Below are positions 27,555-54,464 of a stretch of 64,000 bases of DNA, one piece after another; position 1 is the stretch's first letter, and each line of letters begins with the position of its first letter. A model generated the notes under the pieces. The model did no database searches. It was given only the letters and a program-made list of their open reading frames with translations, and was not told where the DNA came from. Position numbers and translations under genes: made by a program. Origin of the DNA: Archangium sp. (GTDB lineage Bacteria > Myxococcota > Myxococcia > Myxococcales > Myxococcaceae); the NCBI GenBank assembly GCA_030695565.1, contig JAUYRZ010000060.1:1-64000 (forward strand), read 5' to 3'.

Positions 27555-28238
27555 CTACGGCACCAGCGTCCTCGTTCTGAGCTTGCTTCGGATCAGCACG
27601 GCCACGCCGCCCAGCACCACCGCCGGCAGCAGGTGAAACGCGGCGATGTGAGCGATCGTGCCGTTCGAGCAGTGCAGGTGCAGCGCCAACGCGCCACCTG
27701 ACGCGGCCGCGAGCGCCCCCACGAACACGTGTGAAGCCGTCGCCGCGAAACGGGTCGAGAGCACCAGCAACACGCTCACGGGGATCAACGCCACCGAACA
27801 CTCGACGAAGGCGCAGCCCATGCCCCTGAAGAACGGCGCCCCCGGGTCGAAACCCGACGCACCGCCGATGGCCAACACCGAGGCGATCACGAACCCGGCA
27901 CCGACCACCAACCGCGAGGTCATCGCGCCCGGCCGCAGCCACAACACCGACCCCACCGACATCATCAACAACCACGCGACCGCGACCACCGAGCGCATGG
28001 TCATCGAGCCGTGCTGCAGATCAGACCAGCTCATCGCGGCCGCCGCGCCGAGGCCCATCACCAGGTTGAGCGCGAGCAAGACGAGCCCATCCATCCACCA
28101 GGGGCGCGCCTTCGGGTGTGCGGCCAGTTCTTCACGCGCCGCGCGGGCGAGCCGCCGCAAGGCCTCGTCTGACTTCGGCGCCCCACCCGAGGCCAACACC
28201 GCCGCGTCGAGGCGCTCATCGGGCGTCTTCGTCATCAT
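27555..28238 (-). CDS. NrsF-like (DUF1109) membrane anti-sigma factor
   Basis: This 227-residue protein has an N-terminal cytoplasmic arm of about 45 residues and six membrane helices (about 50-70, 80-100, 108-125, 140-160, 166-186, 192-212). That is the layout of NrsF/DUF1109 anti-sigma factors. Cysteines fall in the membrane region (GCAFVECS) and near a loop (HLHCSNG), as in metal- or oxidant-sensing members. It overlaps the ECF sigma gene by four bases. Established NrsF proteins hold their ECF factor at the membrane and release it under copper or related stress. Family assignment is from topology and context. Confidence 0.75.
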   Translation of the reverse strand: MMTKTPDERLDAAVLASGGAPKSDEALRRLARAAREELAAHPKARPWWMDGLVLLALNLVMGLGAAAAMSWSDLQHGSMTMRSVVAVAWLLMMSVGSVLWLRPGAMTSRLVVGAGFVIASVLAIGGASGFDPGAPFFRGMGCAFVECSVALIPVSVLLVLSTRFAATASHVFVGALAAASGGALALHLHCSNGTIAHIAAFHLLPAVVLGGVAVLIRSKLRTRTLVP

Positions 28239-28774
28239 GGCCAGACTCCCTTGAGCAACTCCCGCAGCCGTTCGTAGCCACGGTGTGCGCGCACTTTGAC
28301 GGCCGACTCCGTCACGCCTGCGTTCACGGCGATCTCCGCGAACGAAAGCCCCTCGTAACGGTTCAGCACGATCGCCTCTCGCTGCGCTTCCGGCAGTTGG
28401 GCCAGCGCCTGCTTCACGGCCTTCTCCAGACCCGGGTCATGTTCGAGGCCCGGCTCGGCTTCGCCTTCAGGCAGCTCACCATCGACGGACACCGCCTCGA
28501 ACTTCGTGCGCCGGCGCCAGTCGCGCGCTGCGTTGGTGGCGATGGCGTACAACCACGGCTTCACCTTCGCGCCTTGTAGAAAACGGCCGCGGCCCTTCAC
28601 CATCGAGACGAAGGTGATCTGCGTCAGATCATCCGCCACCGCACCCGACCCGCTCAGCCGCTCCAGGTAGCGGCGCAGGGGGCTCGCATGCCGGCCGAAC
28701 AGCGCGTCGAAGGCCCGGGCGTCTCCTTGAACGAAGCGGGCCATCAGATCCTCGTCAGTCGGCTCGCTCGTCAC
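28235..28774 (-). CDS. ECF-type RNA polymerase sigma factor (SigF-like by context)
   Basis: This 179-residue sigma factor has region 2 (FDALFGRHASPLRRYLERL, then TQITFVSMVKGR and PWLYAIATNAARDWRRR). Region 4 is PEAQREAIVLNRYEGLSFAE with the helix-turn-helix AGVTESAVKVRAHRGYERLR. There is no extra domain. Its start at 28774 lies 20 bases inside the end of the upstream bufferin-maturation gene, and its end overlaps the anti-sigma gene. It is therefore part of a four-gene operon and probably activates that operon from the ECF-like promoter at 30762-30787. Confidence 0.93.
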   Translation of the reverse strand: MTSEPTDEDLMARFVQGDARAFDALFGRHASPLRRYLERLSGSGAVADDLTQITFVSMVKGRGRFLQGAKVKPWLYAIATNAARDWRRRTKFEAVSVDGELPEGEAEPGLEHDPGLEKAVKQALAQLPEAQREAIVLNRYEGLSFAEIAVNAGVTESAVKVRAHRGYERLRELLKGVWP

Positions 28775-30422
28775 GGGAAGCGTCGGACCCTAGCCGAGAA
28801 AGGGAAGACACCATGCCTTCCGAAAACCAGCTCTGCAGTGCCTCGAAGGCAGCCACGCCGCCGTCATCGAGCTCTTCGAACGGAGACAACAACACAGGCA
28901 GCTCCGCACCGGCGACCAGGCTCTGCAACGCTTCGGCCTCACCACCGGCGATCGCCGCGTGGAAGACCACGAAGCCCTTGCGCCACACCACCAACGCCGT
29001 CGGCGTCTTCACGAGGGCCGGCAGCGGCAGACCATCACGCTGCGCCCGGAGCACCGGCTGCGGATCACTCTCCAACACCAACACCCGAACGGAAGGATGC
29101 GCCCGCAGCGTCAGTTCGCCCCACAGCTCCGGGGGGACCTCCTGAAGCTGCGCGAAGGTGATCTCTTCACCATCGGGCGCGATGAAGCTCTCCGCACGCG
29201 CCCACTCCAGCGCGGCCACGTCGGCCCAGTCCGGGCGGGCCGTCTCGAGAAACGCGGGGAACGGCTGACCCAGGCGATCGAGCGACGGGTGGGTGGAGGG
29301 GTGCACGCGCAGAAAATCAGCCACCAACGCGTCGAAGTTTTCGTCACCCACCCCGGCCCGCACCGTGGGGAAGCTGTCGCGCAACACGTCGCGCATGCGC
29401 AGCCAGTACATCTCGGCGTACACCTCGATGCGCGCCTTCGCGGAGAGCGGCGGGTGTTCGGCGATGAGCGCTTCGGCCTCTGCCGAGACGGGCGTGGGAT
29501 CGCAGATGGCGGAGAAGATCGTCTGCTGCAATCCGGTCATCCCGAGCGAAGTCGAGGGAGCACTCGGGCCCCGGGCGACCCGTGGCATCTCGACTGCGCT
29601 CGATGCGAACGGTGCTCGAATCGCCCGCGCCTTCTCGGCCTCGGCCAGAAGCGTCTGCAACTCAGGCACGCCGTCATCCCACTCGATCAACGTGGACACC
29701 GCGCCGAAGCGCCCGAGCGCGCGCGCATAGAGCGCCCACACCTCGTCGCTCACCGGCCCATCGTGCGTGTCGATGATCAACTCGGGCCGCCGTTGATGGC
29801 CCGCGAGGTGAATCTGCACCACCTTCTCCACCGGCACGCCCGAGAGGTACGCGTCGGGATCGAACCCGTGGTTGCGGCTGGAGACGAAGATGTTGTTCAC
29901 GTCGAGCAGCACCTCGCAGCCCGAGCGCTGCGCGACCTGAGCGAGGAACTCCCACTCGGTCAGCTCGCTCTGCACGAAGGTCAGGTAGCTCGACACGTTC
30001 TCCAGCGCGATGCGGCGGCCCAGAAAGTCCTGCACCTGGGTCACCCGATCCACCACGTGACGCACGGCCTCCTCGGTGAAGGCCGCGGGGAGCAGGTCGT
30101 GCGAATAGCGCCCGTGCGCCCGGCCCCAACACAGATGATCCGAGACGATCGCCGGCTCGATGCGCGCGATCAGCGCCTGCCAGTCCTTCAGGTAGCGGGG
30201 GTCCAACGGCTCCGCGCTCCCGATGCCCAACGAGACCCCGTGCAACACCACGGGGCGATCACGACGCACCTTCTCGAGCACCGCGAGCGGTCTGCCGCCC
30301 ACGCCCATGAAGTTCTCCGAGATCGCCTCGACCCAATCGACGGCCGGGGCTGACTCGAGGAACTCCCGGTAGTGCCGGGGCCGAAGCCCCACACCAAACC
30401 CGAGAGGTGCGCGCGCACTCAT
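28755..30422 (-). CDS. fused bufferin maturation protein (DUF692 MNIO + DUF2063)
   Basis: This 555-residue protein fuses two normally separate factors. Residues about 1-270 are a DUF692 multinuclear non-haem iron oxidase (BufB-like): GFGVGLRPRHYREFL, DWVEAISENFM, VLHGVSLGIG, SDHLCWG, LENVSSYL, LLDVNNIFVSSRNHG, IHLAGH and DTHDGPV carry the His/Glu/Asp/Asn metal ligands. Residues about 300-555 match the DUF2063 partner (BufC-like) that recruits the precursor: RIEVYAEMYWLRMRDVLRDS and PSLDRLGQPFPAFLE. The linker is encoded by a palindromic repeat at 29536-29610. It starts four bases after the precursor stop codon. Confidence 0.9.
   Translation of the reverse strand: MSARAPLGFGVGLRPRHYREFLESAPAVDWVEAISENFMGVGGRPLAVLEKVRRDRPVVLHGVSLGIGSAEPLDPRYLKDWQALIARIEPAIVSDHLCWGRAHGRYSHDLLPAAFTEEAVRHVVDRVTQVQDFLGRRIALENVSSYLTFVQSELTEWEFLAQVAQRSGCEVLLDVNNIFVSSRNHGFDPDAYLSGVPVEKVVQIHLAGHQRRPELIIDTHDGPVSDEVWALYARALGRFGAVSTLIEWDDGVPELQTLLAEAEKARAIRAPFASSAVEMPRVARGPSAPSTSLGMTGLQQTIFSAICDPTPVSAEAEALIAEHPPLSAKARIEVYAEMYWLRMRDVLRDSFPTVRAGVGDENFDALVADFLRVHPSTHPSLDRLGQPFPAFLETARPDWADVAALEWARAESFIAPDGEEITFAQLQEVPPELWGELTLRAHPSVRVLVLESDPQPVLRAQRDGLPLPALVKTPTALVVWRKGFVVFHAAIAGGEAEALQSLVAGAELPVLLSPFEELDDGGVAAFEALQSWFSEGMVSSLSRLGSDASRDERAD
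29536..29610. repeat. family-2 repeat, copy 1, encodes the BufB-BufC linker
   Basis: End blocks CATCCCGAGCGAAGTCGAGG and ATCTCGACTGCGCTCGATG bracket this stretch. Two blocks (21 bases at 29585-29605 and 15 bases at 29549-29563) match copy 2 at 54387-54426 exactly, in the same relative order. On the coding strand it reads through without a stop as FASSAVEMPRV...STSLGMT. Confidence 0.85.
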
Positions 30423-30426
30423 CGAC

Positions 30427-30702
30427 TTACATCTTCTTCGCGGCGGCGGCGACCTTGCCACCCTTGGTCTTGCAGTCGGCGGCGCTCAGGCTGATCCAGC
30501 CCTTGCCCTTGCACTCGTTCATGCCGGCACAGTCGTGGGAGGCGTTGCCACAGGCACCCTTGCCCTTGCACTCGTTGACGCCTTCACAGCTGACCTGCGC
30601 GACTTCCTTCGCGTCTTTCGCCTTGACCGGCTTGTCCGCGGCAAACGCGCTCAACGAGGCAACGGCAGACAGCAGGATCAGGCCCTTGGTGGTGTTCTTC
30701 AC
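30427..30702 (-). CDS. bufferin-type Cys-rich metallophore precursor (BufA-like)
   Basis: This 91-residue exported precursor has a signal peptide (MKNTTKGLILLSAVASLSAF, then AA). The mature part has six Cys at about 39, 45, 51, 58, 64 and 77, within CEGVNECKGKGAC, DCAGMNECKGKGWI and DCKTKGG, and ends in a Lys/Ala tail. This matches the periplasmic bufferin family whose cysteines are oxidised to copper-binding heterocycles by DUF692/DUF2063 enzymes. The GTG at 30702 is preceded by GGGGAG and begins directly at the signal. The maturation enzyme follows after four bases. Copper as ligand is family knowledge; it is not shown by sequence. Confidence 0.87.
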   Translation of the reverse strand: MKNTTKGLILLSAVASLSAFAADKPVKAKDAKEVAQVSCEGVNECKGKGACGNASHDCAGMNECKGKGWISLSAADCKTKGGKVAAAAKKM

Positions 30703-30761
30703 GTGGTGATTCTCCCCAACATTTTCGTGCCGCTCGGGAGGAGCGGACACGTTGTGCCCTG

Positions 30762-54352: not shown

Positions 54353-54386
54353 AGACGCCAGGTGATGAGCAGCGATCGCGACCGCT

Positions 54387-54426
54387 CATCGAGCGCAGTC
54401 GAGATGCGGGCGTGCTCCCTCGACTT
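54387..54426. repeat. family-2 repeat, copy 2
   Basis: CATCGAGCGCAGTCGAGATG at 54387-54406 (21-base match including the next C) and GTGCTCCCTCGACTT at 54412-54426 match the two end blocks of copy 1 in the same order. The spacing here is 4 bases, against 21 in copy 1. It lies in the gap between the DUF6600 gene and the dehalogenase. Confidence 0.75.
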
Positions 54427-54464
54427 GCACGATCATCTTCACGGCGGCGAAGGAGTAGAACGGG

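Follow-up and report, generated by a model that had tools for sequence, protein, structure and literature searches.

A dispersed palindromic repeat encodes the interdomain linker of a fused BufB-BufC protein in Archangium sp.

Introduction

Palindromic repeats that are read in frame are well documented in Rickettsia and in genomes rich in REPs. RPEs are palindromic repeats that lie in frame inside conserved Rickettsia genes (Ogata 2000, 2002; reviewed in PMC10969869 and PMC2229807). For REPs, intragenic copies of the GTAG and CGTC families were described by Di Nocera and colleagues in 2013, including different REPs near the same recB site in two Xanthomonas species. The same work already proposed flexible linkers or loops as neutral sites for REPs (PMC3733652). 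In addition, MITEs with in-frame ORFs are known, such as ERIC and the Neisseria elements (PMC2229807).

Here we analyzed a window of 64,000 nucleotides from Archangium sp. (contig JAUYRZ010000060.1; its 8.5-Mb genome is called G000), in which a palindromic repeat encodes the linker of a fused BufB-BufC protein. The resemblance to RPEs is one of mode of action: dispersed palindromes sit in frame inside conserved genes and are tolerated. However, the organism is a myxobacterium and the repeat is a different one, the element is read in several frames, intragenic copies are a minority, and the site that was hit, an interdomain linker, has been refilled by different repeats. The analogy with Rickettsia drawn in a preliminary description of this DNA holds, as the linker is repeat-encoded, the copy is in frame in a conserved gene and relatives lack it. 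With intragenic REPs the element shares that these are short palindromes, chiefly intergenic with some copies within genes, and with MITEs that small inverted-repeat elements yield translational fusions; the differences are given below. On the protein side, 8hci/8hi7 and 7tcr, from the TglHI and MbnBC enzyme-partner complexes, are among the best fold matches of the enzyme part of the BufBC model. In both systems enzyme and partner are separate chains, whereas BufBC is one chain.

Results

The bufBC gene and its locus

The window contains a bufferin locus in which bufB and bufC form a single gene (Table 1). The bufBC gene is an intact ORF of 555 aa with its ATG at 30422, so that the insert is open in the coding frame, as had been noticed before. 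Pfam PF05114 (MbnB/TglH/ChrH) covers residues 9-268, and the score of 372.6 bits for NCBIfam NF050167 (MNIO_BufB), above the curated cut-off of 310, places the protein in BufB. BufC is defined by DUF2063 together with an RRE-type C-terminal domain. In the putative BufC part, PF09836 (DUF2063) reaches 71.3 bits with a cut-off of 27.2, and the HvfC model spans residues 324-482, but scores only 41 against a cut-off of 142. According to PMC12452194, sigma/NrsF genes accompany Buf1 clusters and not Buf2. Unlike this pattern, the precursor here is of the BufA2 type and adjoins the gene for an ECF sigma factor as well as the weak match to NrsF; family naming may differ, however.

Table 1. Features of the bufBC locus and of the repeat copies in the window
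Feature	Position	Strand	Basis
bufBC fusion gene: MNIO_BufB (9-266/268), linker 270-297, DUF2063 (310-392), HvfC-like region (324-482)	28755..30422	-	ORF, Pfam, NCBIfam, AlphaFold
bufA2-type bufferin precursor gene, upstream of bufBC	30427..30708	-	NF050166, 75.4 bits vs cut-off 60
ECF sigma factor gene, overlaps bufBC 3' end	28235..28774	-	Pfam Sigma70_r2 + r4_2; TIGR02937 over cut-off
Possible NrsF-like anti-sigma factor, below cut-off	27555..28238	-	PF06532, 18.6 bits vs 26.8
Palindromic repeat, two-armed, 82 bp, encodes residues 270-297 (APFASSAVEMPRVARGPSAPSTSLGMTG)	29532..29613	-	BLAST matches, RNA fold
Arm A, ACCGTTCGCATCGAGCGCAGTCGAGATGCCAC, 0 mismatches vs arm serving as consensus	29582..29613	-	Arm comparison
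Arm B, inverted vs arm A, 1 mismatch vs arm serving as consensus	29532..29563	+	Arm comparison
Truncated second copy in intergenic gap	54380..54427	+	Sequence match, gene calls

In the AlphaFold model of BufBC (mean pLDDT 91.8, pTM 0.89) the BufB domain closes with a helix at residues 255-269 and BufC opens with a helix at 295-307. In the interior, confidence drops chiefly at residues 271-290 (pLDDT block means 55 and 62), and more mildly (72) around residues 31-40. A simple count of dN/dS against the sister species G003 gave 0.14 for BufB and 0.26 for BufC, indicating purifying selection on both domains. The linker itself is only 20% identical to that of G003 and 8% to that of a second sister species, G002, and is not meaningfully alignable, while BufB reaches 90% and 76%, respectively. 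An unconserved stretch of low confidence between two selected domains means that the element fills the joint without a conserved sequence. It is thus extremely improbable that the linker was selected as protein, with its likeness to the repeat being secondary. The intact ORF and the selection on both domains would agree with this, but the identity values speak against it, as does the DNA, which is a full-length copy of a mainly intergenic element. As the linker is not conserved, we rejected this explanation; a linker conserved in distant homologs, which had been named as the finding that would contradict an origin from the repeat, was not seen.

The repeat element in the linker

The preliminary description had placed the repeat at 29536-29610, encoding residues of about 270-296. 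That this part of the linker is repeat-encoded was borne out, but the element is longer and covers 82 bp (29532-29613, residues 270-297). It consists of ACCGTTCGCATCGAGCGCAGTCGAGATGCCAC, an 18-bp spacer and GTGCTCCCTCGACTTCGCTCGGGATGACCGG(T), with two inverted arms of 32 bp each, and its consensus ends are ACCG and CGGT. In its length and its terminal inverted repeats it resembles MITEs (70-300 bp), the arms being alike at 22/32 positions by hand count. A search for inverted-pair repeats with default settings returned none, presumably because the arms differ. A known structured RNA was rejected as an explanation, since no Rfam match was obtained in the window. MITEs further have a target-site duplication and a parental insertion sequence; no such duplication is visible in the flanks of 19 copies, and no parental element is known, which may set the repeat apart from MITEs. 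From intragenic REPs it differs in its length and its ends, and by the lack of a match to the Y1 transposase (PF01797, Y1_Tnp, RAYT) in the G000 genome. The tag GTAG or CGTC, which in REPs ends a palindrome of 20-40 bp, is not found in it. An identity as RAYT-driven REP was ruled out on these two grounds, the missing transposase match and the missing tag. The core repeat is most abundant in G003, and this genome has one PF01797 match (L181, G003:C48:229-552). A literature search with the core sequence returned unrelated papers only.

The 82-bp element is mostly without stops in 5/6 frames, and 14/19 full copies have a length of 1 mod 3, as has the linker copy. Its RNA is predicted to fold into a stable hairpin (-43.1 kcal/mol, z -2.96), and an in-frame ATG lies within its GGGATGACC end. 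Both features would suit a functional element, acting either as an mRNA hairpin that tunes BufC output or through this ATG as internal start for free BufC. However, the linkers of G003 and G002 carry other repeats without an equivalent ATG, and we regard such a function as quite improbable.

Copies across the genome

The identity, copy number and position of the repeat can be read directly from the genome. The 8.5 Mb of G000 contain the core GAGCGMAGTCGAG 62 times and a reversed control pattern 2 times, and BLAST with the whole element gave 48 matches, about 25 of them full length or nearly so. This genome-wide count, proposed earlier as a check, rules out a chance resemblance of the linker to the repeat. 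The two blocks reported to recur exactly between genes at 54387-54426 were both found, CATCGAGCGCAGTCGAGATGC (21 bases) at 54387 and GTGCTCCCTCGACTT (15 bases) at 54412. They correspond to both ends of the linker element in minus-strand reading, and the copy there is truncated.

The coding context of the copies was judged on individual loci by a home-made gene caller based on codon scores. Of the 58 elements placed, 47 fall between genes, 6 within ORFs and 5 at the edge of a gene, with some of the inside-ORF and edge placements being weak arm matches or depending on uncertain starts. As the noncoding share of the window is only about 9% (same gene caller), the elements strongly shun coding sequence or are purged there, and coding copies are exceptions.

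Two side observations concern other repeats and copies. At L082 (G000:C123:108375-108568) an ORF whose start resembles that of a lipoprotein has a repetitive tail (SAPSTSLGENGVAV...) encoded by four half-copies in tandem. A second repeat family (CCCTCACCC...CCCTC) has 7 near-matches in the window (12771, 21049, 32359, 32724, 39775, 43254 and 61063) compared to 1.07 expected.

Fusion state and linker occupants in the relatives

Fused BufB-BufC is also present in G003 (77% identity), G002 and G018, whereas in order-level relatives the two genes are separate and in most cases overlap by an ATGA of 4 bases. It had been asked before whether close relatives keep separate genes or a linker without the repeat; they do lack this copy, and the distant ones have separate genes, but the close relatives are fused. 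G000, G003 and G002 group in a single clade of fused proteins (support 100/99 in the BufB tree and 1.00 in the BufC tree). Since G018 falls outside it, fusion likely took place twice in the family.

The occupants of the linker differ. In G003 it contains the palindrome CTCGACTCCGCTCGG...CCGAGCGGAGTCGAG, which has the architecture of repeats found across the G003 genome (560 cores). In G002 it contains GATCCCCTCTCCCTCGGGGACAGGGTCAGGGTGAGGGAG, one base off copies of a repeat that is present about 118 times in that genome. The G018 linker was tested for dispersal in its genome and no dispersed repeat was found. G000 and G003 carry related repeats with the same end position in bufC, and from this sequence likeness both linkers may go back to a common ancestral element. 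In the unfused G017 the end of bufB is formed by its own 203-copy repeat, and a further repeat of the CCCTCACCC type lies in frame inside bufC (L042, G017:C535:4800-4820; ASPLPLGEGQGEGAVPPG).

The junction of G000 exceeds that of G003 by 12 nt and that of G002 by 9 nt, which indicates that the repeat mostly replaced earlier sequence; the suggestion that its insertion lengthened the linker is right only marginally. Compared to most unfused relatives, the aligned BufB-to-BufC junction measures 180 nt in G000 and 113-161 nt in the former. Thus, the 82-bp element both substituted native sequence and added length, and the original junction is no longer readable. Separately, the bufB-bufC gap is expanded in G117 and G119 (L091/L092), in G119 via imperfect tandem duplications of the junction itself.

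The preliminary description had also considered that the insertion created the fusion. In a mechanism that we considered for this, a stop-free insert of 1-mod-3 length upstream of the ATGA overlap would skip the bufB stop, and later insertions would have overwritten the original one in each lineage. The overlap in most unfused relatives fits this by arithmetic, since such an insert would join the two frames, and so do the prevailing length and the mostly open frames of the copies as well as G017, which has a repeat at the junction and is still unfused. However, there is one fused clade with different repeats among its members, and G003 and G002 share the fusion of G000 with other occupants. 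We consider this origin rather unlikely.

A second joint: the topoisomerase-RecQ fusion

A topoisomerase-RecQ-type helicase fusion has as its linker a further coding copy of G000 (C10:30903-30984, L005), about 90 bp upstream of which lies a degenerate arm. Pfam reports Topoisom_bac and DEAD; the names RecQ and topoisomerase III are our own reading of the sequence. Repeats are present in this linker in G000, G003, G002, G005 and G017, the relatives carrying their own. None was found in the linkers of G009, G010, G018, G030, G117 and G119, whose genomes hold few or none of these repeats. The linker is thus occupied in 5/5 repeat-bearing and 0/6 repeat-poor genomes (Fisher p 0.002). As the fusion is present in all these genera, repeat insertion there is unrelated to its making. 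That this linker takes up repeats across genera in the same way is a further argument against a fusion of bufB and bufC by insertion.

Fusions in Omnitrophota and junction statistics

BufB-BufC fusions occur in Omnitrophota too. Among the 16 fused proteins examined, 7/16 have a linker that is dispersed in the own genome (G120, G122, G123, G124, G206, G169 and G147), copies having been checked in 11/16. At least seven Omnitrophota fusions have independently taken up repeats. The fused linkers of G121, G312 and G482 were tested in their own genomes and no dispersal was found; that of G468, with only four matches in its genome, is less clearly non-dispersed. In the separate Omnitrophota junctions, 0/12 showed a palindrome beyond shuffled controls.

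Taken together, a dispersed repeat occupies 10/20 fused and 1/24 separate junctions (Fisher p about 0.001, in counts that ignore shared ancestry and with the separate junctions checked by eye and palindrome score instead of copy number). This distribution is also expected if repeats cause fusions. On the other hand, no dispersed repeat was found in the fused G018 and in at least three fused Omnitrophota proteins (G121, G312 and G482), so that a fusion created by this insertion is not supported. The broader idea that palindromic repeats at stop/start overlaps are a recurrent route to bacterial gene fusion, by which BufB and BufC were joined in several Myxococcota and Omnitrophota lineages, is unlikely in our view.

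Discussion

The dispersed 82-bp repeat probably entered the spacer of a gene in which BufB and BufC were already joined, the joint being a permissive sink in which the repeat has no special role for the enzyme. The shared fusion with differing occupants, the fusions without repeat and the way in which the topoisomerase-RecQ linker behaves make it most likely that the fusion came first and the uptake of repeats later. The related repeats of G000 and G003 and the higher share of repeats in fused junctions speak on the other side. We infer that the fusion is earlier than this insertion and that the insertion was neutral. In the proposed course of events, a copy of the palindromic repeat would have inserted into the spacer of the pre-existing bufBC fusion. 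It would persist because the frame is kept, 5/6 frames of the element are mostly stop-free and the joint is unstructured, and each lineage would fill the joint with whichever palindromic repeat its genome amplifies.

Compared to the systems known so far, it appears to be new that one interdomain linker is recurrently hit by unrelated, genome-matched repeat families in two phyla. In a limited literature search, no description of an MNIO-DUF2063 fusion was found in the examined passages of PMC12452194.

As the same fused joint holds different genome-specific repeats in the relatives, such interdomain joints are places where repetitive DNA can land safely. Passive or selfish palindromic DNA can thus regularly supply interdomain linkers, repeatedly and independently at one joint. 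The orthologous fusion enzymes with unrelated linkers are a natural set for testing how much linker sequence matters. They also call for caution, as the linker composition in such proteins mirrors the repeat content of the genome and not function.
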